In this document: positions 7,259-55,146 of the stretch, piece by piece
Layout: each line of letters opens with the position of its first letter
How positions within the stretch are numbered: position 1 is the first letter of the stretch
DNA from: Natrialba hulunbeirensis JCM 10989
Lineage (GTDB): Archaea; Halobacteriota; Halobacteria; Halobacteriales; Natrialbaceae
Assembly (NCBI RefSeq): GCF_000337575.1
Contig: NZ_AOIM01000014.1
Location: 1 to 64,000 of the forward strand
Length of the DNA stretch: 64,000 nt
Direction: 5' to 3'
Position numbers and translations under genes: made by a program
Notes under the pieces: generated by a model
The model's input: only the letters and a program-made list of their open reading frames with translations
Databases searched by the model: none
Told to the model about the DNA's origin: nothing

Positions 7259-7451
7259 GCGTTCTTTCTCCTACCGTCCGTTCTTGCTGTGGAGTCAGCC
7301 CCATCCAGTACGCCAGCCACTTCGAGCAGGAGTTCCGAAGAGTGGATCGACCGCAGCAACCCCGCTTGTGGGGATGTGAGTGGAGACGGAAATGAGTCTC
7401 TGAGCCGTTCGAAAGTTGGGTACAGACGTCAGCAAACGAAGCGTGGCTCCC

Positions 7452-8381
7452 TCAAACGTACTGGAACCACTCGTCGTACTCGTCGGTCGTCCGCTCGACG
7501 ACATCGAAGAACCGCGACTGAATATCCTCGGTCACTGGACCGCGCGAGCCATCACCGATAACGACGTTGTCGATCTTCCGAATCGGTGTCACCTCTGCCG
7601 CAGAGCCGGTGAAGAACAGTTCGTCGGCCGTGTTGAGCTCGCCCCGCGAGATGGAGACATTGTCGTGAACCGTATAGCCCAGATCCTCGGCGAGCGTAAT
7701 CACCGTGTTGCGGGTGATGCCGTCGAGAATCGACTCCGAAAGCCCCGGCGTAAAGATCTCGCCGTCACGAACGAGGAAGATATTCTCGCCCGGCCCCTCG
7801 GCGACGTTACCCTCCTTGTTGAGAACGAGCGCTTCGGCGTAGCCGTTCCGGCGTGCCTCCTCGCCCGCGAGCAGACTGTTGGCGTACAGCCCCGTCGTCT
7901 TGGCGTTCGTCGGCACCTGACTCGAGGCGTGCTTGCGCCAGGAAGAGACCATCACATCGATGCCCTTCTCGAGTGCCTCCTCCCCGAGATAGGTCCCCCA
8001 GGGCCAGGCGGCGATGGCGGTGCGGGTCGGACAGTCGTCGGGACTGACGCCGAGTGAGTTGTAGCCGTAGAAAGCCACTGGACGAATGTAACACGAGGAG
8101 AGGTCCTGTCGGCGGATGAGTTCGAGTGTCGCCTCGGTCAGCTCCTCGCGCGAGTGGTCGATCTCCATCTCGTAGGGCTGTGCGGACTGGAAGAGACGGT
8201 CGAGGTGTTCCTCCCAGCGGAAGATTGCGGGGCCGTTTTCGGTGTCGTAACAGCGTGCGCCTTCGAAGATGCCGCTGCCGTAGTGGAGGCCGTGTGTGAG
8301 GACGTGGATCTGCGCATCGTCCCAGTCGACGAATTCACCGTCCATCCAGATCGTGTCGACGTCCATGTCGTCGAATCCCAT
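7452..8381 (-). CDS. ilvE: Branched-chain amino acid aminotransferase
   Basis: 309-residue fold-type IV PLP enzyme for the last step of Ile, Val and Leu synthesis. Seen: N-terminal MDGEFVDWDDAQIHVLTHGLHYGSGIFEGAR, the PLP lysine region NAKTTGLYANSLLA, EALVLNKEGNVAEGPGENIFLV, and FFTGSAAEVTPI, all typical of IlvE rather than D-amino acid or ADC lyase relatives. Length is normal. It stands alone here; the rest of the pathway (leuA, ilvB) starts at about 60.8 kb in the same window. The 190 bases downstream hold no gene. Confidence 0.93.
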   Translation of the reverse strand: MGFDDMDVDTIWMDGEFVDWDDAQIHVLTHGLHYGSGIFEGARCYDTENGPAIFRWEEHLDRLFQSAQPYEMEIDHSREELTEATLELIRRQDLSSCYIRPVAFYGYNSLGVSPDDCPTRTAIAAWPWGTYLGEEALEKGIDVMVSSWRKHASSQVPTNAKTTGLYANSLLAGEEARRNGYAEALVLNKEGNVAEGPGENIFLVRDGEIFTPGLSESILDGITRNTVITLAEDLGYTVHDNVSISRGELNTADELFFTGSAAEVTPIRKIDNVVIGDGSRGPVTEDIQSRFFDVVERTTDEYDEWFQYV

Positions 8382-8494: not shown

Positions 8495-10624
8495 TTAGTC
8501 CCGGAAGCGGGTTGCCTCGATTGCGACGGCAACGAAACCGACGACAGCGATGGCGACGGCCCCGAACTGTAACAGCGTCGCGAAGGCGCTGTCGGGACTC
8601 GAGTCGTGGTCGTTGTGCTCGCCGTGTGTGTGATCTTCGTGATCCGCGTGATCGTCGTGTGCGTGGTCTGCGTGCTCATCGTGAGCGTGCTCGTGGTCGT
8701 GGTCGTGGTCGTCGTCAGGATCGTGAGCGTGCTCGTCATGATCAGGATCCGCGTGATCGCCGTGACCGTCAGCCGAAACGGCAGTTGCATCGATCCATTC
8801 ACTCACATACGATCCGTCGGGAGCGCCGGTCACGCGAAGATCCCAGTGACCCTCGTCAGGAAGGGGTTGAACCGTCGCGTACGTGCCATCGTCGTGGGCC
8901 TCAAGTTCGACTTCGATCTCCGTCCCCTCCTCACTGCTTGCAAGCAGCCGGACAGATTGGTCCGACTCGATCGGCTCTCCGTCGTCGAGGAATGTAACCT
9001 CGAAGACGATCGGTTCGTCCGCCTCGAGTGTGAACGACTCGGGCGTCGCGTCGGCGGCCGGGAGCGCCGTCACCTCGACGAGTACGTCGTCGTACTCGTA
9101 CTCGATCGTCGCCTCGGTGACATCGTCGTCGACGCCCGCGACCGCGGCCGTCGGCGCGGACGTAAGCACCCCCGAGAGGAGCACGACGACGATCACGAGT
9201 GCAACCTCGAGTCGGACGGCGCGAGCAATTCGGGTGCCCGTTGCGAAGTCGTCGTCCCGGTCGACTCCACCGTCCGTGCTCGCCGGTCGTGCATCACCGG
9301 CCGGTGTGGTTTCGTCGGCCGACTCGAGTCGACCCAGGAGGACGAACCGGGTGACACCGCCGAGTGCGAGTGCGGCGGCGATGAGGACCAGTTTCGCGAC
9401 CAGTGTGAGACCGTAGACGGTGTCCGTGAGACCGTCGGCGGTCGGGACGTGCCACGAGGCGAGGACGAATCCCGTCGCCACGACGAGTGTGACGCCGACG
9501 AGCGCAAGGATCGAGTACCGACGGATCGTGCGTGCGAGGAGCGCGGATCGGTTGTCGGTGTCGGCCGCGCGAACGTGTGGAACGACGACGAACGCGAGGA
9601 CGACCAGTCCACCTGCCCAGAGCCCGGCCCCAACGAGATGGACGAAATCGACGGCTGCCCCCTGCAGTCGGTCGATCGCAGTCGCTGAGTGACTGGTCCA
9701 GGCGATCGTTCCCGCGATGGCGAGCGCCGTGACGAACGTGCCGACGAGCGACGTGCGACGGGGCGGGCGTCCACGAGACATCGCCACCGTGATCCCGACC
9801 AACACGAGGCTGAGGGCGGACTGGACGAGCCAGGCCTGACCGAGTGGGGTCTCCGCGAATTGGGAGATCGTCTCGACGGAGAGTGGTCCCAGTGCCGTGC
9901 TCCGGGCGAGTCCGAGCGCGAATGCGCCGACGAGCGTGAGTAGTGCACCACCCACGAGCAGTCGGCTGAGACGGCTGTCGATCGCCTCTCGTCGCTCCGT
10001 GCGAGCGAAGACGGGACCGACAGCGAGGGTTGTGATCGCCGGAATGCCGATTAGGCCGACGACGCCGACGAGCAACAGCGCTTTCGCGCCCGCCTCGACC
10101 GGCGGGATCGATTCGTCGGTCTCGTCGTCTTCGTACCCCTCGAGAACGGCGTCGCGGTCGAGCGGTTCGTCGCCGACGGCGAAGAAGAACGAGCCCGAGG
10201 TGGTGTGGCCGTCGTCAGCGAGGACCTCCCAATCGACGGTGTACATGCCATCCGCACCGTCAGTGTCAGCGTCGGTATCGGCGCTGGCGTCGGCCTCGGC
10301 GTCTTCGATTGGCACACGGACAACCTGCGTGTCGTCAGAATCGATTTCGGGTGCGGCCGAGACGATCTCACCGTCCGGCCCTTCGACGGTGATGTCGGCG
10401 TTAACGACACCGTCACCCGAGAAGGAGAGGGAGACCTCCTCGGGCACCTCGTCGACCTGCTCACCGTTCGCCGGATTTGATTCGCTCAGATAGGCGTGGG
10501 CCGCGGCTGGCGTCGCAACGAGCCCGATTGCGAGGGTCGCGACGACGAGACACGCGAGTATCGCCGCGAGGAGCGACCGGCGAGCGGGCAAGCCGTGTCC
10601 AGCGGGCGACGATCTCGCACGCAT
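8495..10624 (-). CDS. CopC-CopD fusion, membrane copper-handling protein with His-rich region
   Basis: 709 residues. A signal peptide (1-42) ends in ATPAAA and the mature protein would begin with His43 (HAYLSESNPANGE), the CopC copper-ligand N-terminus; GHTTSGSFFF completes the CopC fold (~43-160). Eight or so helices then form a CopD domain (~185-510). A second outer beta domain follows (~525-605), then a His/Asp-rich stretch (~611-680) and a final helix. It probably binds and moves copper at the cell surface. It is operonic with the lipoprotein gene upstream (10628), 3 bases apart. The His-rich run is coded by GTGGTC-like repeats and could have grown by slippage. Confidence 0.88.
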   Translation of the reverse strand: MRARSSPAGHGLPARRSLLAAILACLVVATLAIGLVATPAAAHAYLSESNPANGEQVDEVPEEVSLSFSGDGVVNADITVEGPDGEIVSAAPEIDSDDTQVVRVPIEDAEADASADTDADTDGADGMYTVDWEVLADDGHTTSGSFFFAVGDEPLDRDAVLEGYEDDETDESIPPVEAGAKALLLVGVVGLIGIPAITTLAVGPVFARTERREAIDSRLSRLLVGGALLTLVGAFALGLARSTALGPLSVETISQFAETPLGQAWLVQSALSLVLVGITVAMSRGRPPRRTSLVGTFVTALAIAGTIAWTSHSATAIDRLQGAAVDFVHLVGAGLWAGGLVVLAFVVVPHVRAADTDNRSALLARTIRRYSILALVGVTLVVATGFVLASWHVPTADGLTDTVYGLTLVAKLVLIAAALALGGVTRFVLLGRLESADETTPAGDARPASTDGGVDRDDDFATGTRIARAVRLEVALVIVVVLLSGVLTSAPTAAVAGVDDDVTEATIEYEYDDVLVEVTALPAADATPESFTLEADEPIVFEVTFLDDGEPIESDQSVRLLASSEEGTEIEVELEAHDDGTYATVQPLPDEGHWDLRVTGAPDGSYVSEWIDATAVSADGHGDHADPDHDEHAHDPDDDHDHDHEHAHDEHADHAHDDHADHEDHTHGEHNDHDSSPDSAFATLLQFGAVAIAVVGFVAVAIEATRFRD

Positions 10625-28724: not shown

Positions 28725-30155
28725 ATGAGTGATGCACAGCGGCCGATCGACGACGGCGTACCGAGCGAGCAACCGAGCACTGGCGGTGCGGGTGGAGGCG
28801 ACGGCGACGATGATAACGACGAGTTCGAACCCGTCCAGGTCTTCCCCGAAGCCGAAGAGATGGACCTCCGGCCGGGCGCGGACAGCTGTTACAAGTGCTC
28901 GACCTGCGACACGAACTGTCCCGTCGCCGAGGTCGACGACGAGTTCCCCGGGCCGAAGTTCCAGGGGCCCGAGCAGTGGCGTCTGAAGCGACAAGACGAC
29001 CACGACATCGACGAGTCGGTGATGAAGTGTTCGAACTGCATGCGCTGCGATAGTGCCTGTCCCTCGAGTGTCCCGCTCTCGCAGATGCACAACACGGCGC
29101 GGGCGGAGTACGTCGAGGAGAACATGAGCAAACTCTCGCGTGAGTACCTTCGAAACCGGATGCTCGCGAACTACCGGCGACTCGCGCCGCTGGCATCGAT
29201 GTTCCCGCGCACGGCGAACGTCGTGATGGGGCTCTCGGTCACGAAGTGGCTCGGCGAGAAGACCCTGGGGATCACGAGCGAGCGCGAGTTCCCCGAATTT
29301 GCGACCGAGACGTTCCGCGAGTGGTGGACGGACAGGGGCGGGGCGAAGGTCGAGAACGAGGACAAGCGCATCGCCTACTTCCACGGCTGCTATTCGAACT
29401 ACAACACCCCCGAGGTTGCAAAGGCGCTCGTGCACGTCTACGAACACTTCGGCTACGAGGTCATGGTCCCCGAACAGTCCTGCTCCGGTACGCCGATGTT
29501 CGCCAACGGCATGCTCGAGGACGCCCGTCGCGCAGCCGAGACGAACGTCCGCGAACTCGCCGCCGCCATCGAGGACGGAGCCGACGTCATCGCATCGTGT
29601 AGCTCCTGTTCGATGTCGATCCGCCAGGAGTACCCCGAACTGTTCGACTTCGAGGACACCGAGACCGTCGCCGCGAACACCTGGGACGCCGTCGAGTACC
29701 TCCGCGTCCACGAGGATTTGACGGGTGCACTCGAGAACACCGCTGTCGGCGACGAGTTCGATGATATGGCGTATCACGCACCGTGTCATTCACGTAACCA
29801 GGGACTCGATGGACAGACGATCGAAGTCATGGACGCGATCGACGGCATCGACGCACACGACGTGGGCGACTCCTGTTCGGGCATCTCGGGTACCTACGGG
29901 TGGAAAGAAGAGAACTACGAGACGTCGATGAAGATCGGCGAGGAGATGTTCGAACACATGGACGAAGCCGAGGCCGAAACCGGCCTGACGGAGTGTCCAA
30001 CCTGTTCGATGCAGATGGAACACGGCACCGGCTACGAGATCAAGCACACACTCGAGGTACTCGAGGCGGCTCTCGGTGGTGACGGAGCCGAGAACGGGGC
30101 CGGGAGTGGCTCGGACACAGACGCGGGAACCACGACAGCGACGGAGTCGATCTAA
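28725..30155 (+). CDS. glpC: Anaerobic-type glycerol-3-phosphate dehydrogenase, subunit C
   Basis: 476 residues. Two 4Fe-4S motifs, CYKCSTCDTNC and CSNCMRCDSAC, are followed by two CCG-like cysteine domains (YFHGCYSNYNTPE ... CSSCS; YHAPCHSRNQG ... CPTCSMQMEHG). Some cysteines of the canonical CCG pairs are changed. It hands electrons from GlpAB to menaquinone. N- and C-termini carry acidic low-complexity tails. A 100-base gap separates it from glpB. Its stop overlaps the next gene's start as TAATG. Confidence 0.95.
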   Translation: MSDAQRPIDDGVPSEQPSTGGAGGGDGDDDNDEFEPVQVFPEAEEMDLRPGADSCYKCSTCDTNCPVAEVDDEFPGPKFQGPEQWRLKRQDDHDIDESVMKCSNCMRCDSACPSSVPLSQMHNTARAEYVEENMSKLSREYLRNRMLANYRRLAPLASMFPRTANVVMGLSVTKWLGEKTLGITSEREFPEFATETFREWWTDRGGAKVENEDKRIAYFHGCYSNYNTPEVAKALVHVYEHFGYEVMVPEQSCSGTPMFANGMLEDARRAAETNVRELAAAIEDGADVIASCSSCSMSIRQEYPELFDFEDTETVAANTWDAVEYLRVHEDLTGALENTAVGDEFDDMAYHAPCHSRNQGLDGQTIEVMDAIDGIDAHDVGDSCSGISGTYGWKEENYETSMKIGEEMFEHMDEAEAETGLTECPTCSMQMEHGTGYEIKHTLEVLEAALGGDGAENGAGSGSDTDAGTTTATESI

Positions 30156-31678
30156 TGAATTTACAAGAGCGCATCGCACGACGACGATCGGCACACCAGG
30201 GGCGAACGGTGGTGGTCGATCGCGACCATCTGAGTCCAGTCGTCCACCGCCCGGAGCCGATCGGCCGCGGTCCCGTGCTGGAGCAGTTGCTGGACGAACT
30301 CGAGCCTGTCTTCGACGGCAAGTTGCCGGAGCCGGTTGCCGTCGTCGGCCCGCCGGGTTCGGGGACGTCCGCGATCGTTACCGCGCTGTTCGATGCGCTC
30401 AACGACCGACTCGGCGAATCGAGCCGATCGATTGCAACGACGACGCGTGCGGGCAGCACCGGTCCGGTGACCTGGTTCGTCTACGTCGACGGTCGCCGCG
30501 TTGAGAGCGCCTTCGCGTTCTACCAGGCCGTTCTCTCCGTGATTTCGGCAGAGCCAGTGCCCGAGAGTGGGATTGGAACGGATGACCTCCGAGAGCGACT
30601 GACTGCGCGCCTCGCGCGCCACGACCGTCGGGCTGTCGTCGCCATCGACCACCACGACGAACCCGAAACGCTTCGGTACGAACGGGCCAGAGAACTCCTC
30701 GAGCCGGTCAGTGACAGTGTCGCGACGATAGCGGTCGGCCAGTCGACACCCGAGAAGTGGGCGCCCGCTCACGTCGAGGCTGATGGCGATGTGGACGGCG
30801 ATGCGGACCGGGATGAAGACGGAACCGGAACCGGAACCGGGACCGGGACCGAGGCCGTCGAAAGCCGGACAGCGACCGGGGACGATAGCACACAGCCAGC
30901 GGGATCGGTCGTCACTGTTCCGGCCTACCGCCATCACGAACTCGTCGATGTCATCACCGACCGCGCCTCGACCGGCCTCGCCGCGGGCGTCCTCGACCAC
31001 GAATCGGTGCGCGAACTCGCCATCTGGGCCGACGGCAACGCCCACGATGCGCTCGCCGCACTGTTCGGAGCGGCCTGCTGTGCCACCGCGACCGACGCAA
31101 CACGTATCGATGCCTCCCATCTCGAGGCGGCGCGGGGCGCGGTCCCTGCGGACGGCGTCCACGTCGACCGTGCGCTTGCACTCTCTGAGACGCGCCAGCA
31201 AGTGCTTGGCCACCTCGTCGATGTCGACACCGACGACCGTCCTATTCGAGAAGTCGCGAGTGCCATTGCCGAGCGCTCGACGCTCACCAACGGCACGGTC
31301 AAGCGGTTCCTCTACGAACTCGCAGACCGGGGCGTCATCGAACGCGTTCCACTCCCGACGAGTGGCAGCGGTCGCCGTCCGAGCACAGTCGAGCCTCGCT
31401 TCCCGACGCTGGTCTTTGGCGCACTCACGTCAGCAACGGCGGAAACAGCGACCAGCATGGGTGGGGCGGGAGACGGAGACACGGATCTGAATGCGGTACC
31501 GGACACCGACATGGACACAGAGACGAATACGGACACAGAAACGGACACGGACATAGACACAAACACGGAACCGGACACGGACACAAGCTCGAACACGGAC
31601 ACAAACACAGACATAGACACAAACACGGAACCGGACGCAGACACAAACACGAACACCAGCACGAACGAACCGCCCTAG
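30155..31678 (+). CDS. Cdc6-like AAA protein with degenerate Walker A and C-terminal winged helix
   Basis: 507 residues. It starts like haloarchaeal Orc/Cdc6 (ERIARRRSAHQGRTVVVDRDHLSPVVHRPEPIGRGPVLEQLL), but the P-loop at 65-72 is GPPGSGTS, with Thr71 where Lys is expected. The Walker B region VVAIDHHDEP has His after the Asp instead of Glu. A winged helix lies at ~345-405 (REVASAIAERSTLTNGTVKRFLYELADRGVIERV). The last ~75 residues are a T/D/N repeat. ATP hydrolysis is doubtful. The ATG overlaps the glpC stop, and a CHAT-protease gene follows, so it may be a sensor or scaffold rather than an origin factor. Confidence 0.8.
   Translation: MNLQERIARRRSAHQGRTVVVDRDHLSPVVHRPEPIGRGPVLEQLLDELEPVFDGKLPEPVAVVGPPGSGTSAIVTALFDALNDRLGESSRSIATTTRAGSTGPVTWFVYVDGRRVESAFAFYQAVLSVISAEPVPESGIGTDDLRERLTARLARHDRRAVVAIDHHDEPETLRYERARELLEPVSDSVATIAVGQSTPEKWAPAHVEADGDVDGDADRDEDGTGTGTGTGTEAVESRTATGDDSTQPAGSVVTVPAYRHHELVDVITDRASTGLAAGVLDHESVRELAIWADGNAHDALAALFGAACCATATDATRIDASHLEAARGAVPADGVHVDRALALSETRQQVLGHLVDVDTDDRPIREVASAIAERSTLTNGTVKRFLYELADRGVIERVPLPTSGSGRRPSTVEPRFPTLVFGALTSATAETATSMGGAGDGDTDLNAVPDTDMDTETNTDTETDTDIDTNTEPDTDTSSNTDTNTDIDTNTEPDADTNTNTSTNEPP
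31495..31665. repeat. GACACN-type hexamer array coding a T/D/N tail
   Basis: Hexamers such as GACACG, GACACA, AACACG and GAACCG repeat through the 3' end of the Cdc6-like gene. One longer unit, coding DIDTNTEPDTDT, appears twice (~31550 and ~31610). The step is in frame, so copy changes alter only the tail length. A smaller GGAACC/GGGACC array at ~30825-30850 makes the GTGTGTGT linker of the same protein. Confidence 0.8.
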
Positions 31679-38646: not shown

Positions 38647-39558
38647 CTACTCGAGTGTGGGTGGCCCGCTGTTCGCTTCATTGTTTGAGCCGCGGACGTA
38701 CTCGAGATACTCGCGATAGTACCCAAGACCACGAACACCCGTAAGAAACGTCGAGAGGGCACTGAAGGCCGCGCGGTCGCTCGTCGGAAGATCCCGATCG
38801 GGAGATTTAATCCCTGACGGTCGCGGTGGAATGCCTGGCTCTCCGTATCGCTCTGGATAGTACTGCTGGAGTTGACAGAGTCCACGACCGACTCGACGAT
38901 CCTTTTTGATCAGTGCACGCAGTGAGTTCCGAGTAGGGTGGGACATCGTCACGTCCTCGGCGAAGTGCATCTTGTAGCCAGCTTCGTGCACCCGATTGCC
39001 GAACTCTTTGTCCCCACCGGATGTCAGGCGGTGATCGAAGAGACCCACGTCCTCGAACACGTGGCGGCGAACGAACAGACAGCATGTCGGCACGAACTGC
39101 TGGTACTCGAGATACTGTTCGATCGGGAACCCAGTGTGATGATCGTGTCGGGCTGCCAGCGTGGGGTTGTCTGGAAGCGTGAGTTCAACGTTACAGCCCA
39201 TATAATCCGCATTGGTGGTTTCGAACTCGTGGAGTGCGGATTCTAACCAGTCGTCAGGGACGGTCATATCGGCGTCAACGAAGGCTAGGATTTCACTATC
39301 GGTTTCTTGGGTTCCAGTATTTCGGGCGGCGTAGGAGGACTGTCTCTCCTGTTCAAAACAGAGTGTAGCCTGATCGCTCTCTGTAATGCATTCCGCGACA
39401 ACATGTGGTGTATCGTCGTTCGAATTATTATCGACGACAGTTAGTGTAGCATCCCCCCCAAGTTGTGGAAGGAGAGATTCGATCGTTCCACTAGCGCCAG
39501 CAGGATCGTTGTACACGGGGACGATAATCGAGAGCTTTGCTGTCTGTTGCTCACTCAT
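38647..39558 (-). CDS. GT2 glycosyltransferase, AglE-like
   Basis: 303 residues. KLSIIVPVYNDPAGASGTIESLLPQL at the N-terminus, VDNNSNDDTP, and the metal site FVDADMTVPDDW identify a GT-A transferase. The C-terminal part is a basic membrane-near region (SLRALIKKDRRVGRGL). The context with aglQ, aglR and aglG suggests it adds a distal sugar to the dolichol-linked N-glycan, like AglE. I cannot fix which sugar. Its ATG overlaps the aglQ-like stop? No: its own start (39558) overlaps the upstream gene's stop by 4 bases (ATGA), so the pair is co-translated. Confidence 0.8.
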   Translation of the reverse strand: MSEQQTAKLSIIVPVYNDPAGASGTIESLLPQLGGDATLTVVDNNSNDDTPHVVAECITESDQATLCFEQERQSSYAARNTGTQETDSEILAFVDADMTVPDDWLESALHEFETTNADYMGCNVELTLPDNPTLAARHDHHTGFPIEQYLEYQQFVPTCCLFVRRHVFEDVGLFDHRLTSGGDKEFGNRVHEAGYKMHFAEDVTMSHPTRNSLRALIKKDRRVGRGLCQLQQYYPERYGEPGIPPRPSGIKSPDRDLPTSDRAAFSALSTFLTGVRGLGYYREYLEYVRGSNNEANSGPPTLE

Positions 39559-40682
39559 GTTGGATCAAAATTCGGGAGTGCTATGTCGTTAAGCCGGGTA
39601 GCCTGATACAGTCTTGCTGTGAGGGTTTCAGCATCTGGGGTATTTCGATCCATTCGATTTGTATCCATGTTGTAGTGACGATTGAACTGTTTCGTGATCC
39701 ACCATCGTCGCTCGTCTGCTGAACCGATGTCGAAGACTTCCATCGCAAAGGGTACCTCAAATCCAACGGGGTTGTACGCCGGCCCATATTCGTTTTCCCA
39801 CACCTTTTCCCGATATGCTGACGATGTAATGTAGTTCAGACTACGAGTACACTTTTCAGAACTCCAGAATGAGTGGTCAGGATATTGTTGCTTCAACAGT
39901 GCGAACGCATACAGGTTGAATGCATGGTACCCAATGGCCTTCCACCGAAGTTGTTGTTTCCGTGATGGTAGCGGAATACTGCTCGTCCCGAATGTCACAC
40001 CAATACGGTTACGCTCGTCAACCCTTGCAAGGTGCAGTAACCGTCGAAGCGAGTTCGTCGGTTTAAGCGGGTGGAACACAAGTCCCGATTGATAAAGCCG
40101 GAGATTCTGTTCCAGTTCATCGAGAAATCTCCGAACCTGATCATCAATCTGTGAACTTGTCCAAGAGAGATTAGCCAATATGCCACCCGCTGCAGCGAAC
40201 CAAATCTGGTGGTTGAACGTTGCATCGAACGGCAGTGTCCGTCCGTCGATTTCCACGCGTTTCCAGATTCCCGTTCGCTTGTCCTGTGGATGCATGAGAA
40301 AAACGTTCTCGGCAAGCTGAGCGAGTTCTCGATCAGCGAGTGCGTCCGCAGCGACTGCTAACGCTTCGATCGTCCAGGCCTGTCCGATGAGACCGTTACA
40401 GGCGTCCTTCCCATCTTCTGTCCGGTGGTGAAACGTCCATCCCTCGGGCCGCGCATCTTGGCCGAGAAGGTATGAACTTGTTTGCTCGGCTGCGTTACGG
40501 AACGAATTATTGCCTGTTTGTTGGTACAGGGAAGAAAAAGTGAGAAGCCAATGCGAAGTGTTCCGTACGGGCGTCTCTTTGTCGCCGTACAATCCGTTGT
40601 GTCCGGGAGAAATTGACCCATCGTCTCGTATTTCTGAGCGATGAGTGTTTGCCGTTTTGGCAATGTGTGATGACAAATCCAT
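39555..40682 (-). CDS. aglQ: agl cluster protein AglQ, (alpha/alpha)-barrel-like
   Basis: 375 residues, mostly helical with repeated W/H-rich motifs: GHNGLYGDKETPVRNTSHWLLTF, GWTFHHRTEDGKDACNGLIGQAWTIEAL, FDATFNHQIWFAAAGG, WKAIGYHAFNLYAFA, GFEVPFAMEVF. This matches the AglQ family of haloarchaeal N-glycosylation clusters, thought to have a six-hairpin glycosidase-like fold and to be needed for making the mature pentasaccharide. The exact reaction is not established as far as I know. Its stop overlaps the downstream GT2 start. Base composition is lower in GC than in the genes to the left. Confidence 0.75.
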   Translation of the reverse strand: MDLSSHIAKTANTHRSEIRDDGSISPGHNGLYGDKETPVRNTSHWLLTFSSLYQQTGNNSFRNAAEQTSSYLLGQDARPEGWTFHHRTEDGKDACNGLIGQAWTIEALAVAADALADRELAQLAENVFLMHPQDKRTGIWKRVEIDGRTLPFDATFNHQIWFAAAGGILANLSWTSSQIDDQVRRFLDELEQNLRLYQSGLVFHPLKPTNSLRRLLHLARVDERNRIGVTFGTSSIPLPSRKQQLRWKAIGYHAFNLYAFALLKQQYPDHSFWSSEKCTRSLNYITSSAYREKVWENEYGPAYNPVGFEVPFAMEVFDIGSADERRWWITKQFNRHYNMDTNRMDRNTPDAETLTARLYQATRLNDIALPNFDPT

Positions 40683-41026
40683 GTGTATTGATCGGATATG
40701 AATATAAAGTAGAGTATGATCTTTAATCTGTATTTTGAAGGAGTCCTAACAGAGAATGAGATGGGGGTTAAAAATCATAATAATATCTACATCACTTGGC
40801 AAGATGTGTGGGAGAGTGCGGAATAGTCGTATAATACATCATCAACCAGAGCATTATTCTATATAAAATGCATAAATAAATATATTTGTTATTATTAATA
40901 TGTCCTATATTGAACTATTAGTGTGGACGAATCGCCACCTTCTACAATATCATAATCACCTTTGCTTGAGAGTTGTAAATTAACAATTCACAAGTTACTT
41001 ACCCCACTATTTGAGTTGTATCCCTA
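40683..41026. other. AT-rich intergenic region between divergent genes
   Basis: 344 bases, clearly AT-rich (for example AATAAATATATTTGTTATTATTAATATG near 40873-40900). It separates divergent aglQ and the sulfatase-like gene. Promoters for both must lie here, but several TATA-like runs prevent a single choice. No gene, tRNA or long repeat is seen. Confidence 0.5.
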
Positions 41027-42502
41027 ATGACGAGTGCTGCTCCAAATATTCTACTTGTGGTTTTAGACAGTACAAGAGCAAAAAACACGAGTTTACATGA
41101 TTACGAACGGAAGACAACACCCTTCTTAGACCAATTCTCTGAGAACGCAACATTATACACACAAGCCCGCGCACCAGGGATGACCAGTTACCCTAGTCAT
41201 GCAAGTATATTCACTGGCATGGAGGTTAAAGAACACGGTGCACATGATCTTCTTACCCACCAGCTAGATCCCACTAGTACGATTTGGCATACACTCAGTG
41301 AAGAACACGGATATACGACTGGTGTTTTCTCAGATAATGTCAATCTCACAGGCGACAAATCGCTCAAATCCTGCTTTGATCATGTTGTAGGCCGCCGGGG
41401 CCGACTATTTCCAAAGGCAGACGACCCCGATATCTTCTTCAATAGTCCAGAATACCTTGAAAATAATAACAAGCGGTCAAAGTATATTGATTTCCTGACG
41501 CACTGTCTTAGGAGTGATCGCCCAATTAGAGGACTAGCAAATGGCGCTGCAAAACAACTTAGCCTTTCTCTCTCATCATCCAGATTGGAACAACAACTTG
41601 ACCATTCGGCAGATCGCTTCCTAAATCCATTTTATTCATGGATTGATTCACAGAACGGGCCATGGGCGGCTTGTCTCAATCTAATGGACACACATTTGCC
41701 GTTTTACCCTGCAAAAGAGTATGACCTCTGGGGGGGAAAAGAACTGCAACAGAAACAGGCAGATCTTGATCCTACTTCGTGGAAAGTATACGGTGAACAA
41801 GTCTCCTGGGAGGATTGGAATGCTTTTGAAAATATCTACGACGGCACAATTAGGCAAGTGGATTCGTATCTCGAAGACCTTGTCACAGAACTTGAAGAAC
41901 GTGAGATTCTTGACGAGACGCTCCTTGTCATAACATCTGATCACGGTGAGGGGTTTGGCGAATATAGTCGTGTCCGCCCTGATTTTCCCATTGCGGGACA
42001 TATTGTGGGGTTGCATGAATCTCTTCTCCATGTTCCACTAATCGTCTCGTATCCTAACCAGTCGTATGGACGCGAAGTCTCTGACGCAGCGACACTTCGT
42101 TGTTTTCCAGAGGCAGTTAAGGCTGCTGTGGAAGGGGAATGGGACGGTAACGAGTTTGTTCCAGATAGGCCAGTTGTAGCATCCGCATCAACAATTGACC
42201 ACAAGAAGAAAAATGCTCAACGGGCGGGGAAGTTCTGCGATGATATTGACCCCTATGGAGGAGAAATTCAGGCAGTGTACAAAAACGAAACCGGAAGTGT
42301 TAAGAAATATTTAAAATGGGATGATAATGCTGTCACGGTTGAGATTAAAGATGCACACACCGCGACAGTCATCGATCAGGATAATGCTCACGAGGTTGTT
42401 ACAGACGTATTTGATCGCTATTCCGATTTGGGAGTTTCATCGCATCAGGACCGGATCAACAATAGAACACTGGAGCACTTAGAGAGTTTGGGGTATGTAT
42501 AG
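41027..42502 (+). CDS. Sulfatase / alkaline-phosphatase superfamily protein
   Basis: 491 residues. Metal-binding N-terminus NILLVVLDSTRA, then GMTSYPSHASIFTGMEVKEHG where the nucleophile stands, WAACLNLMDTHLPFYP, and the second metal site LLVITSDHGEGFGE. The sulfatase CxPxR core is here SYPSH: Ser instead of Cys is possible for Ser-type sulfatases or phosphotransferases, but the Arg is replaced by His. It may be a phosphodiesterase or head-group transferase acting on cell-surface glycans. The gene is AT-richer than its neighbours and sits in an accessory patch, suggesting transfer. Confidence 0.75.
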   Translation: MTSAAPNILLVVLDSTRAKNTSLHDYERKTTPFLDQFSENATLYTQARAPGMTSYPSHASIFTGMEVKEHGAHDLLTHQLDPTSTIWHTLSEEHGYTTGVFSDNVNLTGDKSLKSCFDHVVGRRGRLFPKADDPDIFFNSPEYLENNNKRSKYIDFLTHCLRSDRPIRGLANGAAKQLSLSLSSSRLEQQLDHSADRFLNPFYSWIDSQNGPWAACLNLMDTHLPFYPAKEYDLWGGKELQQKQADLDPTSWKVYGEQVSWEDWNAFENIYDGTIRQVDSYLEDLVTELEEREILDETLLVITSDHGEGFGEYSRVRPDFPIAGHIVGLHESLLHVPLIVSYPNQSYGREVSDAATLRCFPEAVKAAVEGEWDGNEFVPDRPVVASASTIDHKKKNAQRAGKFCDDIDPYGGEIQAVYKNETGSVKKYLKWDDNAVTVEIKDAHTATVIDQDNAHEVVTDVFDRYSDLGVSSHQDRINNRTLEHLESLGYV

Positions 42503-42576
42503 TATGAGCCAAAATTATTTTCTGTTCCACAAGTGCGTTCAGGTTTGTTTGTGAGGGCGAGCATAATCCGGACATT

Positions 42577-42662
42577 CTATAGTAGCCACTGCAAGTCAAT
42601 GCACACCTGATCACACGACTGCTGTGCGATCAGTGTGTAAATAGTTGCAGTTGTTACTATAG
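42577..42662. mobile_element. MITE-like palindromic element
   Basis: 86 bases begin and end with CTATAG. The outer 18 bases (CTATAGTAGCCACTGCAA at the left, TTGCAGTTGTTACTATAG at the right) are inverted repeats with two mismatches. The arms continue inward through CACACCTGATC.../...GATCAGTGTG to a centre near CACGACTGCTGTGCG, so the whole element folds into one long hairpin. It contains no gene. It lies about 120 bases from the decayed transposase and may be a non-autonomous derivative of a haloarchaeal IS. Confidence 0.7.
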
Positions 42663-42779
42663 CGGGTGTCAGGGCGTGCTGCTTTTGATTGAATTGTTGC
42701 TTTGGAAGCTGATGTAGTGGTCAACGAAGAACAGGTCGAATAAACGATAGAAGAACTTACGGAACTCTTAATATCAGGA

Positions 42780-43485
42780 TCGCACACGCGCGGTATCGCC
42801 GAACGTGCGCTAGATCACCGAGAAGACGATCCCAGATAACGCTCTCTGCCCGTAGAGAGTACCCATCAATCCGTGCGTTGTGCGCGTGATCAATGGGATG
42901 TAATTCACGATGCCTGATTAGCGGTCTCACGCCTTCTTTTCTCAGCTTATCTCGAAATTACTGCCAGTTGTAGCCTTTGTCGGCGGCGAGATTGTGTAAC
43001 TCACCCGTGTTGTGGCGGACGAGTTGCCAGCCGAGTTGGGTGTCGCAACGTTTCTCGGTCATGTATTGAACGTCGAGAACAGTTTGTGACTTCACATCGA
43101 CAAGAGCCGTTGTCTTGAGCGTGTGCACACGTGGTAATTCGTCCATCAGAAATAGTATTTGTTGGCGTTTTCACGGTCAAAAACGTCGCGTCTATCTCTG
43201 CATGACCAGATGGCTCATGCAGTTCGCCGACAGGCGTAGCAGCACTCACCAGACCGGCATCTTAGTCTTGCCAAACGATTTCACTAGCGCCGAGTGATCA
43301 AGGAAATTGACATTCTTAAGGCTAATTACCGCCAATATTTCTGGCATCTCACTCAGAGAATCAAACGCTTCACGGTAGGGTTTCTCTAAGTATACCCGCA
43401 GACAATGCAACGAAACGACGGCGTAGTCGACGAATCCGCCACCATCGTTTGGGGGCGGCGGTTTCGGCTCAACTACCAACAGCAC
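42780..43485 (-). pseudogene. IS5-type transposase, decayed (frameshifts and in-frame stop)
   Basis: Minus-strand pieces in different frames line up as one transposase. The order is HCLRVYLEKPYREAFDSLSEMPEILAVISL ... SALVKSFGKTKMPVW; then EPSGHAEIDATFLTV; then RVHTLKTTALVDVKSQTVLDVQYMTEKRCDTQLGWQLVRHNTGELHNLAADKGYNWQ; a TAA at 42958; and finally FRDKLRKEGVRPLIRHRELHPIDHAHNARIDG. These are the pattern of IS5-group DDE transposases of haloarchaea, with DATF as the first and AADKGY as the second catalytic Asp. At least two frameshifts and one stop make it inactive. Ends of the IS were not identified. Confidence 0.8.
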
Positions 43486-43662
43486 TTTTAGCCAACATCA
43501 CGGCATTCCCAGCGAATGAATGAAAATTTGACATAATCGATAGGATCCCCCTGTTTTAACACCCTAGTTCTATCGGTTAAAGTCTACGTAGTTATTCGAT
43601 TCACCAGAGCCCACAGAAAGGAAATCATCAATGGGTTGCAATCGTAACCGGATTATATCACC

Positions 43663-44517
43663 ATGGCCCCAATGCAATTACTCACAACTATCCAATCTTT
43701 ATTCCGGGATGGGTTTTACATTCTCCGAAATGAAGGTATTCTATCCTTTTTCAGTACAGTACTGAGGATCATAGGATTGAATTATCAAGGTATAAGCTAT
43801 TATATAATATATTTTTATAAACAACATCTACACTTTCACCAGCGAATGGCAGAACCCTTCACAGTTATAAAAGTGAATCCTAAGAAGATACAGAGCACTG
43901 CGCCAGGGAATATTGATCGATGGAAACACATCGGTGAGGTTCGGTCTGGAAACTGGGATCAGTCGAACAAATCACTCAATGAACTCATAAAATATCGTAG
44001 CGTTGTTGATCGGTTCCAAAATGATGTTGCTTGGGAAAACACAGAGATATATTCTACAGCTATAGAACGCGTCAGTGAAGGGGAAGTGTACTGGAACGGT
44101 TGTCGAACAATCAATGATATTGAACAACGAGCGAAGAGCATCGAAGATCTGTATGCTTCTATTCAAGAGTCTGGTTTCAAATCACAATCCGAATTGCAGG
44201 GCAGGAGCGTCAAATCTATCGTTCTGAGCGGTTCATTTGATCGATCAAAGACCGATATAGCGGTAGCTATCAGTCGTAACGGCGACTTCCTATTCATTGA
44301 TGGAAACCATCGGCTTGCGATTTCTCATGTGCTTGAACTTGACGAAATCCCCGTTCGTATTGTTGTTCGCCACTCCGAATGGCAAAATCTACGTGAAGAA
44401 GTCATGAACGCTAACTCAAAAGAAGAACTATCTGAACGCGCAAAAAGCAACATTAACCACCCAGATATTGCTGAGACCGTTCCAGATAGTTGGGTGACTG
44501 AACAAAGCGATGAATAA
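43663..44517 (+). CDS. Uncharacterised protein with a ParB-like DGNHRLA motif
   Basis: 284 residues from ATG 43663; a second ATG at 43672 is as likely. An amphipathic to hydrophobic N-terminus (~1-50, FFSTVLRIIGLNYQGISYYIIYFYKQH) may attach it to the membrane. The C-terminal half has SIVLSGSFDRSKTDIAVAISRNGDFLFIDGNHRLAISHVLELDEIPVRIVVRHSEW, which resembles the ParB/sulfiredoxin GxHR core. I do not recognise a function; similar proteins occur in surface-polysaccharide clusters. AT-rich coding sequence and IS remnants next door point to horizontal gain. Confidence 0.65.
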   Translation: MAPMQLLTTIQSLFRDGFYILRNEGILSFFSTVLRIIGLNYQGISYYIIYFYKQHLHFHQRMAEPFTVIKVNPKKIQSTAPGNIDRWKHIGEVRSGNWDQSNKSLNELIKYRSVVDRFQNDVAWENTEIYSTAIERVSEGEVYWNGCRTINDIEQRAKSIEDLYASIQESGFKSQSELQGRSVKSIVLSGSFDRSKTDIAVAISRNGDFLFIDGNHRLAISHVLELDEIPVRIVVRHSEWQNLREEVMNANSKEELSERAKSNINHPDIAETVPDSWVTEQSDE

Positions 44518-49242: not shown

Positions 49243-49980
49243 ATGCAAGCAGTCGTACTGGCCGCGGGCAAGGGAACCCGCCTTCGGCCCCTGACCGAGG
49301 ACAAACCAAAGGTCCTCGTCGAAGTCGACGGAACGCCGCTCATCGAGGACGTCTTCGACAACCTCCTCGAGATCGGCGCGACGGAGTTCATCGTCGTCGT
49401 CGGCTACCAGAAAGAGCAGATCATCGAACGCTACGGCGACGAGTACGAGGACGTTCCCATCACCTACGCCCACCAGCGCGAACAGCTGGGGCTGGCTCAC
49501 GCTATCCTGCAGGCCGAACCACACATCGAGGACGACTTCATGCTCATGCTCGGGGACAACATCTTCCGAGGGAATCTCGGCGACGTGGTCAACCGCCAGC
49601 AGGAGGAGCGAGCCGACGCAGCGTTCCTCGTCGAAGAAGTCCCCTACGAGGAGGCCTCGCGCTACGGCGTCCTCGATACGAACGAGTACGGCGAGATCGT
49701 CGAGGTCGTCGAGAAGCCCGATGAACCCCCATCAAACCTCGTGATGACCGGCTTCTATACGTTCACGCCCGCTATCTTCCACGCCTGTCACCTCGTCCAG
49801 CCCAGCGACCGCGGCGAGTATGAACTCCCCGACGCGATCGACCTGCTCATCCAATCCGGTCGAACGATCGACGCAATTCGCATGGACGGCTGGCGTATCG
49901 ACGTTGGCTATCCAGAAGACCAGGAGACCGCAACGGAACGTCTCCAGGGGAACTCGCCAGTGGCCAGCCAGACTGAGTGA
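49243..49980 (+). CDS. aglF: UTP-glucose-1-phosphate uridylyltransferase, AglF type
   Basis: 245 residues from ATG 49243 (an in-frame ATG at 49222 adds seven). QAVVLAAGKGTRLRPLTEDKPKVLVEVDGTPLIEDV is the nucleotide-binding signature, followed by FMLMLGDNIFRGN and GWRIDVGYPEDQ. Haloferax AglF makes UDP-glucose for hexuronic acid synthesis, and AglM, encoded just past the origin, is the next enzyme. Divergent from the GlmU-like gene. The 3' side opens into the replication origin. Confidence 0.85.
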   Translation: MQAVVLAAGKGTRLRPLTEDKPKVLVEVDGTPLIEDVFDNLLEIGATEFIVVVGYQKEQIIERYGDEYEDVPITYAHQREQLGLAHAILQAEPHIEDDFMLMLGDNIFRGNLGDVVNRQQEERADAAFLVEEVPYEEASRYGVLDTNEYGEIVEVVEKPDEPPSNLVMTGFYTFTPAIFHACHLVQPSDRGEYELPDAIDLLIQSGRTIDAIRMDGWRIDVGYPEDQETATERLQGNSPVASQTE

Positions 49981-50116
49981 CTGTACTCGAGTAGCGTAGC
50001 GATCTGTTCTCCCTGAAAGTAGTCGAACAACAGCGAAGGTTCTGACGTGCGGAGGGAACTCCATTGTGGGGGCCTTGTGCCAAGTTAGACAGTACGTGAT
50101 TGGCGGCTATCGACAC

Positions 50117-50140
50117 CCCCACACCGGATTTCAGATGAAA
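50117..50140 (+). repeat. ORB-like element 1
   Basis: CACACCGGATTTCAGATGAAA, with a CCCC flank. It is the outermost repeat on the aglF side. It shares 17 or more bases with elements 3 and 4 in reverse orientation. Confidence 0.85.
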
Positions 50141-50227
50141 TGGTGGAGATGTGAGGGGTGGGGTGTGAGATGGGGATGGAGGTGTAGTTGGACTCAAATG
50201 CCGAATATTGGGTGTAAAGACGTTTGA

Positions 50228-50335
50228 GAGCCGATATGCTATCGATAAGCTATCGACAGCCTTGATCGTTTATTATAACTATTACTGTATAGGTTATCTA
50301 GTACTACTACTAGTGTAGTAGAAAGACGAGACAGA
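50228..50335. other. AT-rich stretch, probable duplex unwinding element
   Basis: AT-rich and dyad-rich DNA between ORB elements 1 and 2. It includes a repeat of GCTATCGA (GCTATCGATAAGCTATCGA), TATTATAACTATTACTGTATAGG, and CTAGTACTACTACTAG. No frame is open. It is the most easily melted part of the region by eye. Confidence 0.6.
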
Positions 50336-50436
50336 TGATCGAACGTGAATACTGATACCGAACGTTTTGATGAACTACCCATTTATGTTTCCAGTAGCGT
50401 TCTCCTCGAATTGATGCGGCGGGCATACCCAGTTGG

Positions 50437-50456
50437 GACACCGGGTTTCAGATGAA
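50437..50456 (+). repeat. ORB-like element 2
   Basis: GACACCGGGTTTCAGATGAA, same orientation as element 1. It borders the AT-rich stretch on the orc side. Confidence 0.85.
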
Positions 50457-50827
50457 TTCGGTGGCCGCCGATGAACTGTTCTCCAGACGATTCCCACCTC
50501 GATCAGGCACTCGGCAACAAGCACGGCAGTCCAGACCCGCAATCCAGACTTCCAGTCCACCAGACCGTTCATATCGCTACCTTCACCACCATCATCGTGA
50601 CCCGCATCACCAGCATCGCTACCCCCACCACCAAACCTCTCCTCTCCCGCCAGTACTCTCATATCGTCTCTCCGCTGTGTCGTCACCCTCACGCCACTGT
50701 TTGATCACCCTCACTCCACTGTTTCGTCATCGCCGTTCCACTGTTTTTGCCACTCCACCAGCCCTATTGCTCGACCACTGCTCCACTTCCTACCTCCTCT
50801 TACCCCATCCATACCCTCCTGACAATT

Positions 50828-50850
50828 ACATCTGAAATCCGGTGTGGGTG
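50828..50850 (-). repeat. ORB-like element 3
   Basis: CATCTGAAATCCGGTGTGGG, inverted relative to elements 1 and 2. The TGTGGGTGT flank corresponds to the G-rich side of archaeal ORBs. Confidence 0.85.
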
Positions 50851-50924
50851 TCCCATCTTCGTCGCCACTACTCGAGTCCCCCACCACCTCATCTCCCCAC
50901 CACCCCACACCCCAGTTACGAAAT

Positions 50925-50947
50925 CATCTGAAATCCGGTGTGGGCCC
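50925..50947 (-). repeat. ORB-like element 4
   Basis: CATCTGAAATCCGGTGTGGG again, identical to element 3 over this 20-base core. The spacing between elements 3 and 4 is about 96 bases. Confidence 0.85.
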
Positions 50948-50998
50948 CTCTCCGCTACCAACCACCAGCGGAGCCAGCACCACACTGAGACACGAATT

Positions 50999-51020
50999 CA
51001 TTTGAAACCCGGTGTCTGTC
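50999..51020 (-). repeat. ORB-like element 5
   Basis: CATTTGAAACCCGGTGTCTG, preceded by GAATT as in element 6. It is a variant with AA in the centre of the TTCAnnTGAA dyad. Confidence 0.82.
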
Positions 51021-51138
51021 TCGTCATATCGGCCGCGTTCGTCCGTTGTATCGCCTCGTGTTGATCGTCCACTGCGAGGGTGGTACTCGAGTCCGTCCCG
51101 ACCGGTGACAGGTGAGAAAGAAAGAACTAAACCGAATT

Positions 51139-51157
51139 CATTTGAAAGACGGTGTAT
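51139..51157 (-). repeat. ORB-like element 6, overlapping the orc1 start
   Basis: CATTTGAAAGACGGTGTATG: the final ATG is the start codon of the orc1/cdc6 gene. Initiator bound here would sit on its own promoter and start, suggesting autoregulation. Confidence 0.8.
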
Positions 51158-52535: not shown

Positions 52536-52602
52536 CCCTCACGGTCCCCGATCCAAAAACGACTAATCGCAGTCGCTCGTCTGCTCGTGTACGACTACCA
52601 GT

Positions 52603-53928
52603 ATGCACGTCTCTATCATTGGCAGCGGCTACGTCGGAACGACGGTCGCCGCCTGCCTCGCGGATCTCGGCCACGAGGTCGTCAACGTCGAAATCGACGA
52701 GGAGATCGTCGAGACGATCAACGCCGGCGAGGCCCCGATCCACGAGTCCGGGCTGGCAGAACGGATCGACGAGCACGCCGGCCCTGACGCGAGTGGAAAC
52801 CTGCGCGCGACGACCGACTACGCCGACGTGTGCGAGACCGACGTCACGTTCCTCTGTCTCCCGACACCCCAGGCCGAGGACGGCAGTCTCGACCTCGCGC
52901 CGATGCGCGCCGGCTCGGAGTCACTCGGCCGCGCACTCGCAGAGCAATCAGACGAGGACGACCACCTCGTCGTCGTCAAGAGCACCGTCCTCCCCGGAAC
53001 CACCGAAGACGTCGTCGGCCCCATCCTCGAGCGCGAGTCCGGCACCGCCATCGGCGAGGGAGTCGACCTCGCGATGAACCCCGAGTTCCTGCGGATGGGA
53101 ACCGCCGTACAGGACTTTCTCGAGCCCGACAAGGTCGTCGTCGGTGCGACGAGCGACGCCGCCGCTGGGACGCTTCGCGACCTCTACGCACCGATCCTCG
53201 ACCGCGAGGAAACGGATCTCGTCGAAACCGACGTTCGCGAGGCCGAGCTCATCAAGTACGCCAACAACGCCTTCCTCGCGTCGAAGGTCTCGCTGGTGAA
53301 CGAACTCGGCAACATCGCCAAGGAGTACGGCGCAGACGCCTACGAGGTCCTCGAGGCGGTCGGTCTCGACGACCGCATCTCGGCCCGGTTCATGCGCTCG
53401 GGACTGGGCTGGGGTGGCTCCTGTTTCCCCAAAGACGTCGCCGCGCTCCGGGCCGGCGCTCGCGAGCAGGGCTACGACCCCGACCTGCTTGACGCCGTCG
53501 TCTCGGTCAACGACGAGCAGCCGACCCGGCTGGTCTCGCTGCTCGAAGACCACGTTTCACTTGATTCTGCGCGGATCGCTGTTCTGGGACTCTCGTTCAA
53601 GCCCGGCACCGATGACATCCGCAAGTCTCGCGCGCTCGACGTGATCGACGAACTACAAACGCGCGGCGCGAGTGTCGTCGCCTACGATCCGGTCGCAATG
53701 GACAACGTTCGAGCGGAGTACGGGGAGACGCGATTCGACGGGGCACTCGAGTTCGCCTCGTCACCAGACGATGCCCTCTCCAACGCGGACGGCGCGGTCG
53801 TCGCAACCGATTGGCCGGAGTTCGACGAGCTGTCGTTCGATGGGATGGCTCAGCGAGTTGTCGTTGACGGCCGGCGGATCGAGATTGATGAGCGCGACCT
53901 CGACGTATACGAGGGGTTGACCTGGTAG
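52603..53928 (+). CDS. aglM: UDP-glucose 6-dehydrogenase, AglM type
   Basis: 441 residues. N-terminal Rossmann loop IIGSGYVGTTVAACLA, the KSTVLPGTT and NPEFLRMGTA motifs, and catalytic Cys274 in GWGGSCFPKD. The C-terminal domain begins VLGLSFKPGTDDIRKSRALDVI. It oxidises UDP-glucose twice to UDP-glucuronate, the donor for AglG and related steps. AglF on the other side of the origin supplies UDP-glucose, so the orc gene splits a functional pair. It starts 67 bases after the orc1 stop. Confidence 0.92.
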   Translation: MHVSIIGSGYVGTTVAACLADLGHEVVNVEIDEEIVETINAGEAPIHESGLAERIDEHAGPDASGNLRATTDYADVCETDVTFLCLPTPQAEDGSLDLAPMRAGSESLGRALAEQSDEDDHLVVVKSTVLPGTTEDVVGPILERESGTAIGEGVDLAMNPEFLRMGTAVQDFLEPDKVVVGATSDAAAGTLRDLYAPILDREETDLVETDVREAELIKYANNAFLASKVSLVNELGNIAKEYGADAYEVLEAVGLDDRISARFMRSGLGWGGSCFPKDVAALRAGAREQGYDPDLLDAVVSVNDEQPTRLVSLLEDHVSLDSARIAVLGLSFKPGTDDIRKSRALDVIDELQTRGASVVAYDPVAMDNVRAEYGETRFDGALEFASSPDDALSNADGAVVATDWPEFDELSFDGMAQRVVVDGRRIEIDERDLDVYEGLTW

Positions 53929-54069: not shown

Positions 54070-55146
54070 ATGGAGTATGACGGAACTCGTGCACAGTCGG
54101 TCGATCCTGCCTCCGAGACCGGAGGCGTGCTCGCCATGACCGACGAGCGGCGCGAGATTTCGGTAGAGGACGTTTGTATCCTCATTCCGACCCTCGACGA
54201 GGCGGCGACGATCGGTGACGTAATCGACGACTTTCAGGACCTCGGCTACGGGAACGTCGTCGTCATCGACGGCGGATCCACAGACGGGACGCGAGAAATT
54301 GCCAGCGAACACGGCGCACAGGTGCTAACCCAGTCCGGCCAGGGGAAGGGGCAGGCGGTCCGCGAGGCAGTGTCCTACATCGATGTGCCCTACGTTTTGA
54401 TGCTCGACGGTGACGGCACGTACGATCCGGCAGACGCAGAGACGATGCTCGAACCGCTCTCCCGTGGCTACGAGCACGTCATCGGCAACCGCTTTGCCGA
54501 CATGGACGACGACGCGATGAAGGCGCTGAACGGCGTCGGGAACCGCCTTATCAACCGCTCGTTCCGGTTCATCCACGGCGCAGCGTACGACGACATCCTC
54601 TCTGGCTACCGGGCGTTTACCGTCGACTCGTTCAACCGACTCTCACTCGACTCGGACGGCTTTACGATCGAGACCGAACTCGCCGTCGAGTGTGTGAAAC
54701 ACGGCGTCGAGACGACAGTCGTTCCGGTCAGTTACAGCGCTCGACCGGAGGAGTCGGAGACGAACCTCCACCCGGTCAAAGACGGCGGGACGATCATCCT
54801 CGCGCTGTACTCGCTGGCGAAGACGAACAACCCGCTGTTTTATTTCGGGAGCCTCGGCGTCGGCGGAATCGCGGCCGGTGGCGCAATCGCGACCTACGTG
54901 CTCTGGCGCTGGCTCCAGTACGGCGTTGGCCACGAGATTCTCGCACTCGTTTCCGCGGCCGCCATCTTGCTCGGCGTCCAGCTCCTCATGTTCGGCGTCC
55001 TCTCGGACATGCTCGTGACCCTGCATCGCGAGCAGCGGCGGCGACTCGAGCAGATTACGCGGAACGCACGCGATCAGCGTCCGGCCACAGAGACGGATCG
55101 CGCGTTCGAGTACGAAGACGACGGCGGCGAACAGCACGACGAGTAA
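54070..55146 (+). CDS. aglJ: Dolichol-phosphate glycosyltransferase AglJ
   Basis: 358 residues from ATG 54070. GT2 with CILIPTLDEAATIGDVIDDFQDLGY, VIDGGSTDGTREIA, QSGQGKGQAVREAV, LMLDGDGTYDPADAE and SGYRAFT. Two C-terminal helices (~255-305) anchor it. In Haloferax AglJ adds the first sugar to dolichol phosphate. A TATA-like CCTTTTGCATA (~54037-54047) sits 23-33 bases before 54070, fitting a leaderless start there; ATG 54136 (MTDERREIS) is the other option. The C-terminal tail is charged and low in complexity. Confidence 0.88.
   Translation: MEYDGTRAQSVDPASETGGVLAMTDERREISVEDVCILIPTLDEAATIGDVIDDFQDLGYGNVVVIDGGSTDGTREIASEHGAQVLTQSGQGKGQAVREAVSYIDVPYVLMLDGDGTYDPADAETMLEPLSRGYEHVIGNRFADMDDDAMKALNGVGNRLINRSFRFIHGAAYDDILSGYRAFTVDSFNRLSLDSDGFTIETELAVECVKHGVETTVVPVSYSARPEESETNLHPVKDGGTIILALYSLAKTNNPLFYFGSLGVGGIAAGGAIATYVLWRWLQYGVGHEILALVSAAAILLGVQLLMFGVLSDMLVTLHREQRRRLEQITRNARDQRPATETDRAFEYEDDGGEQHDE

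Follow-up and report, generated by a model that had tools for sequence, protein, structure and literature searches.

The segment 50116-52535 of the window, by which we mean the whole 64,000-nucleotide stretch analysed (bases 1-64000 of contig C14 in a source genome of 4.16 Mb in 48 contigs), is best explained as a replicator-initiator unit of plasmid type that the chromosome has captured and that is predicted to act there as a secondary origin, a reading to which we give a probability of roughly 0.6. Inverted ORB boxes lie in the intergenic region beside an orc gene, and an AT-rich stretch is flanked by boxes (Table 1). As this is the anatomy of experimentally studied haloarchaeal origins in the available text of two reports (PMC3528665; PMC4010727), the segment is likely an origin-competent unit. 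The initial annotation had already called the locus a well-defined origin on these elements, and the layout is indeed the standard one next to haloarchaeal orc/cdc6 genes, so far as sequence can tell; by the same token, the unit is of an already known kind, the haloarchaeal orc/cdc6-adjacent origins. By analogy with the studied origins, once bound to the six boxes, Orc would unwind the AT-rich stretch and load the MCM helicase, and the locus would serve as an Orc-specific secondary chromosomal origin, not as the main oriC1. The unit, presumably of plasmid source, would have been placed between aglF and aglM, upstream of the promoter of aglM, at some point in the descent of Natrialba, Natronococcus and Halopiger, and then kept.

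Table 1. Features of the predicted origin and its flanks (window coordinates; HMM scores in bits, cut-offs in parentheses)
Feature	Position	Strand	Remarks
aglF (UTP--glucose-1-phosphate uridylyltransferase)	49243..49980	+	left neighbour; NF041313 430.9 (400)
ORB 1 and C5 tract	50116..50137 (exact match 50121-50137)	+	left edge of the part common to plasmid copies
AT-rich stretch, likely unwinding element	50265..50324 (about)	.	lowest 60-base GC, 0.27
ORB 2	50438..50454	+	exact pattern match
ORB 3	50829..50845	-	exact pattern match
ORB 4	50925..50941	-	exact pattern match
ORB 5	50999..51015	-	exact pattern match
putative orc promoter-like box, GAAAGAACTAA	51120..51130	+	promoter label inferred; AAGRNYTAA form in 31/33 loci
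ORB 6, possible feedback operator	51139..51155	-	abuts orc start codon
orc1/cdc6-family initiator gene, 459 aa	51156..52535	+	TIGR02928 382.7 (181.3); Cdc6 lid and winged-helix domains
junction to agl side, with aglM's own promoter-like box	52536..52602	+	CCAAAA..GACTAA-type box, common to six empty sites
aglM (UDP-glucose 6-dehydrogenase)	52603..53928	+	right neighbour; NF041297 680.7 (670), marginal
aglJ	54136..55146	+	next gene in the split run; TIGR04182 463.5 (325)

The boxes are described by a degenerate 17-mer, ACACCGNNTTTCARATG, with six exact copies at 50121-51155, two on the plus strand followed by four on the minus strand. No further exact match was found in the 4.16-Mb genome, where the next best was one site with one mismatch; at up to two mismatches, the reversed control pattern hit 3 genome sites, and shuffles of the window gave a mean of 0.18 matches (largest 2) against the 7 found. 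As the pattern was derived from the window's own six copies, its conservation in the other 32 of the 33 loci compared (the window and 32 relatives) is an independent and stronger test. The order >><<<< was found in 15 of 15 agl-linked loci tested, and the loci not linked to agl genes vary slightly, with five to nine boxes in all but L026, which has three; most of their arrays are near-identical. Against six relatives, each box retained 14-17 of its 17 letters, while identity of most spacers was down to 14-53% in the four relatives that are more distant. The C tract at ORB 1 is retained in most relatives. Thus, the six ORB-like repeats in opposed orientation that the initial annotation described all match the 17-mer exactly, and the array recurs in relatives.

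The AT-rich zone proposed earlier was likewise recovered, as the GC minimum of the locus. It lies between ORB 1 and ORB 2, two boxes of the same orientation, and in most of the 33 loci the lowest-GC stretch occupies the same interval. Local strand skew changes from +0.46 at 50100-50219 to -0.66 at 50700-50819, and a C-rich tract with 21-22-base repeats and strong strand skew occupies 50480-50980, between ORB 2 and ORB 5; this repeat tract is enlarged only in alkaliphile-type Natrialba. Strong local skew was considered as a general property of these origins and rejected, being present in four Natrialba loci (the window, L002, L003 and L060) and absent in L004, L005 and L018.

The 459-aa product of orc matched PF22703 and PF09079 above cut-off in addition to AAA matches, and has the AAA+ and winged-helix domains and the length (>300 aa) by which we defined an initiator. 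It is 98-99% identical to the Orcs of Natrialba chahannaoensis, Natrialba sp. SSL1 and N. magadii, and is strongly constrained: against six relatives, dN was 0.003-0.051 and dS 0.42-0.86, and in a seventh comparison, with L016, dS was saturated. The gene had been annotated as orc1, of which the assignment to the orc1/cdc6 family holds and the identity with the conserved Orc1 does not, as the product scores 298 bits against the Orc1 equivalog NF001625 (cut-off 501). Since a paralogue on another contig (C34) reaches 651 bits and is the conserved Orc1, the locus is not the primary origin. In N. magadii (our genome G003 was treated as this species, whose chromosome has 3,751,858 bases according to the available text of PMC3403918), the Orc orthologue occupies 935,650-937,026, and the conserved Orc1 match (1,962,669-1,964,159) and the published major origin are about 1.03 Mb away. 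On both grounds, oriC1 was rejected as the identity of this locus.

In the source genome, nine orc genes score above the family cut-off, that of the window included, and one further gene is weakly Orc-like. One paralogous orc, on contig C20 (L043, 7156-10155), has boxes on both sides with a related but different motif, ACACCGGGTTTCCGGTG; a paralogue with its own variant boxes was counted in favour of an Orc-specific origin. The window itself encodes at 30155-31678 a second, very divergent Orc-like AAA protein of 507 aa, under the family cut-off, which also occurs in N. magadii near 954 kb.

GC skew had been suggested as a check of the origin, and in 400 kb of the N. magadii genome, the only one giving such support, it came out weakly in favour: the cumulative maximum falls in the 2-kb bin of the origin (P 0.03-0.06 by block shuffles), but the skew step there is unremarkable, ranking 146th of 160 in descending order. 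The known oriC1 of the same genome peaks five bins off.

The arrangement at the start of orc suggests an additional function for the last box. In 31 of the 33 loci, the 17-letter core of the last ORB starts at -17 from the ATG, and in L061 and L070 at -18 (for L024, L025 and L061, the nearest in-frame ATG was taken as the start codon instead of the aligned start). The promoter-like box upstream of orc is absent in two of the 33 loci, L010 and L026. The composite of promoter-like box and ORB 6 was found once each in 14 of the 125 genomes of the family set, all of them among the 21 with Orc, and the control gave no match. As the last ORB lies between the promoter-like box and the start codon, the orc promoter is probably overlapped by an initiator site, and from this position we infer feedback of Orc on orc, in which the box would let Orc limit its own expression. 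On initiator autoregulation, the available text of PMC3936714 mentions only bacterial dnaA, where DnaA boxes in the dnaA promoter likewise put an initiator site inside the promoter of the initiator gene; unlike there, the protein here is unrelated and from another domain of life, and the regulation is read from position alone. If the start-codon box does repress orc, haloarchaeal initiator feedback could be tested by a simple reporter assay.

The position between aglF and aglM given in the initial annotation was confirmed, as both genes pass their NCBIfam equivalog cut-offs, aglM marginally. The enzymes AglF and AglM reportedly act in successive steps in Haloferax volcanii. The surroundings are a true glycosylation neighbourhood, with aglF, aglM and aglJ and, at 34.6-39.6 kb, genes for glycosyltransferases and an STT3/AglB protein; low-GC3 genes at 38647-44517 (a glycosyltransferase, a sulfatase-like gene and unknowns) look like a variable island. 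Our search of the open-access literature found no published report of an orc gene between aglF and aglM. Origins near polysaccharide genes have been reported on Haloarcula chromosomes in the available text of PMC3528665.

Comparison within the family indicates that the unit is an insertion. Orc, scored at E 1e-150, is present in 21 of the 125 genomes, and in 17 of these the unit is at the agl locus, namely in Natrialba (g1, 7/7), Natronococcus (g3, 9/9) and Halopiger (g24, 1/1). Orc is adjoined by aglF in 14 of the 17, whereas G035, G128 and G129 have aglJ alongside and aglF not there. Agl genes are absent beside the unit in the other four (G012, G064, G103 and G139, the last being L024). At the empty sites of six genomes examined, aglF, aglM and aglJ are consecutive without orc, with aglF-aglM gaps of 103-215 bp. 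Among the aglF matches listed for 84 genomes without the unit at agl (the set with aglM matches down to 66% identity, which takes in G103 and G139, both with the unit on another contig), 26 genomes had an aglF-aglM gap below 600 bp, with a median of 122.5 bp, and 13 a gap of 600-12,000 bp. As aglF and aglM are adjacent in the 26 genomes, the unit is an insertion into that junction, and the notion of a split cluster stands. G103 has an empty aglF-aglM site in addition to its unit on another contig. The box of the CCAAAA..GACTAA type that precedes aglM at empty sites recurs in the window between orc and aglM, which puts the right edge of the unit no more than some 20 bp from the orc stop codon. 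No integrase or transposase was found among the flanking genes scanned by family (44.6-55.1 kb), so that this mark of recent mobility is lacking; nor was a target duplication noticed. Occupied sites in three genera, empty sites and a free plasmid unit together offer a before-and-after view of the gain of a chromosomal origin. Other genomes hold 1.3-11 kb at the aglF-aglM junction; in G030 (L057, 5969-8750), it contains 2.8 kb with a partial second copy of aglF.

Outside the family, plasmids or second chromosomes carry the unit in several genera, among them Haladaptatus, Haloferax, Haloarcula and Halorussus. The Orcs of the units on pHME132 of Haloferax mediterranei and pHG3 of Haloferax gibbonsii are 83.8% and 83.4% identical to that of the window, and these units have the same box motif and a last box at -17. 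The window unit was classed as plasmid-type on three criteria, namely Orc identity of 80% or more, a shared ORB motif and a box abutting the start codon; 80% Orc identity is also where Wu et al. 2012 set haloarchaeal origin families in the available text (PMC3528665). The pHME132 and pHG3 units differ from that of the window in being plasmid-borne, with parA near the unit in both, in having five right-hand boxes (four here) and short spacers, and in the presence of a second orc on the plasmid. A single hit per record at E 1e-50 had suggested that the unit is their sole initiator, but as each plasmid has a second orc gene, this idea was dropped and the unit is left as a candidate replicator of both; GC skew of pHME132 and pHG3 gave no clear origin signal. 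The close copies on plasmids of other species indicate that the window unit is probably a captured extra origin. According to the same available text, the origins of Wu et al. 2012 (PMC3528665) resemble the unit in their inverted ORBs with a G-string, AT-rich stretch, adjacent orc and Orc-specific boxes, and some lie in polysaccharide-gene regions of Haloarcula chromosomes; their oriC1 is unlike it in that, by NF001625, the oriC1 Orc is here another gene.

How often the unit entered the agl locus bears on its history. All 15 agl-linked Orcs tested fall into a single clade (100/99), and that of L024 (Natronorubrum, on a 13-kb contig) is next to it. A single capture with subsequent losses or later transfer fits. 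More than one entry into the aglF/aglM junction, or spread between genera by recombination, seems to us somewhat doubtful: it accords with host genera that are not a clade in either the aglJ tree or the rpoB-region tree, where the best tree requires three changes, but the insertions share the same junction, the same orientation and a single Orc clade, the tree backbones are poorly supported, and the well-supported branches of the rpoB-region tree allow one change. A more far-reaching version of capture can be held tentatively, at slightly less than even chances. In it, the plasmid unit, once captured between aglF and aglM, would have become fixed and strongly favoured as a secondary origin of whole genera, outlasting the glycosylation genes around it; it would also have a built-in feedback switch, an Orc box whose position between promoter and start codon is exact to the base and which several haloarchaeal families share, on plasmids as well as chromosomes. 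Whether such an origin fires is a separate matter, and it is an unlikely but serious reading that the origin is complete yet dormant: silent in normal growth, but capable of driving replication from a plasmid or after the loss of other origins. ORB-flanked dormant orc loci with ARS activity are known in Haloferax mediterranei from the available text of PMC4595724, the source genome has its nine orc genes, and in other species some loci of this kind do not fire. In that text, the dormant oriC4-cdc6H and oriP1-cdc6L are also predicted secondary origins with inverted ORBs beside their own orc; oriC4, however, is in a variable region of its genus, whereas the window unit is fixed in its genera. 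Six intact boxes at one site in all 17 genomes of three genera argue to some extent against dormancy, since more frequent decay, of the kind seemingly under way in L026, would be expected of a spare origin.

Two further readings are improbable. That the boxes mainly regulate orc or titrate the initiator, at a locus that is no longer an origin, is very improbable; regulation is plausible by position, as the last box abuts the start codon in each of the 33 loci, but an operator would not need the five other boxes and the AT-rich stretch, which keep their places as far as 1 kb away, and plasmids carry the unit. Least probable of all is functional coupling between origin and sugar genes, for example surface glycosylation timed with replication. 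The shared neighbourhood of initiator and sugar genes pointed out in the initial annotation is real as adjacency, with orc and aglM on the same strand, a gap of 67 bp and an arrangement stable in three genera, yet a meaningful link did not hold up. At the Natronococcus loci examined, aglM is absent between orc and aglJ, the best aglM matches being near 60% identity elsewhere or absent, and three Natronococcus species also lack aglF beside an origin that is retained; relatives' units, moreover, occur without agl genes alongside. As aglM keeps a promoter-like box of its own and agl genes are lost beside a kept origin, there is no sign of functional coupling, and the sugar genes would be an accident of the landing site, with no link to sugar metabolism found. 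Taken as a link between replication and glycosylation, the locus is ordinary.

Several loci of the comparison depart from the common array. In L021, the boxes lie at -533 to -157 from orc, and a 63-bp tandem duplication brings their total to nine, as it does likewise in G064 (contig C10). The locus of Haladaptatus sp. DYF46 (L026, 9512-10609) has three boxes, an interrupted orc and no promoter-like box, and appears to be a decaying unit. On a Haloarcula halophila plasmid (L069), the sequence at 7243-7742, between opposed boxes and containing the AT-rich stretch, aligns inverted to 9242-9742 of the Natrinema locus L014, as if inverted ORBs had recombined and flipped the segment.
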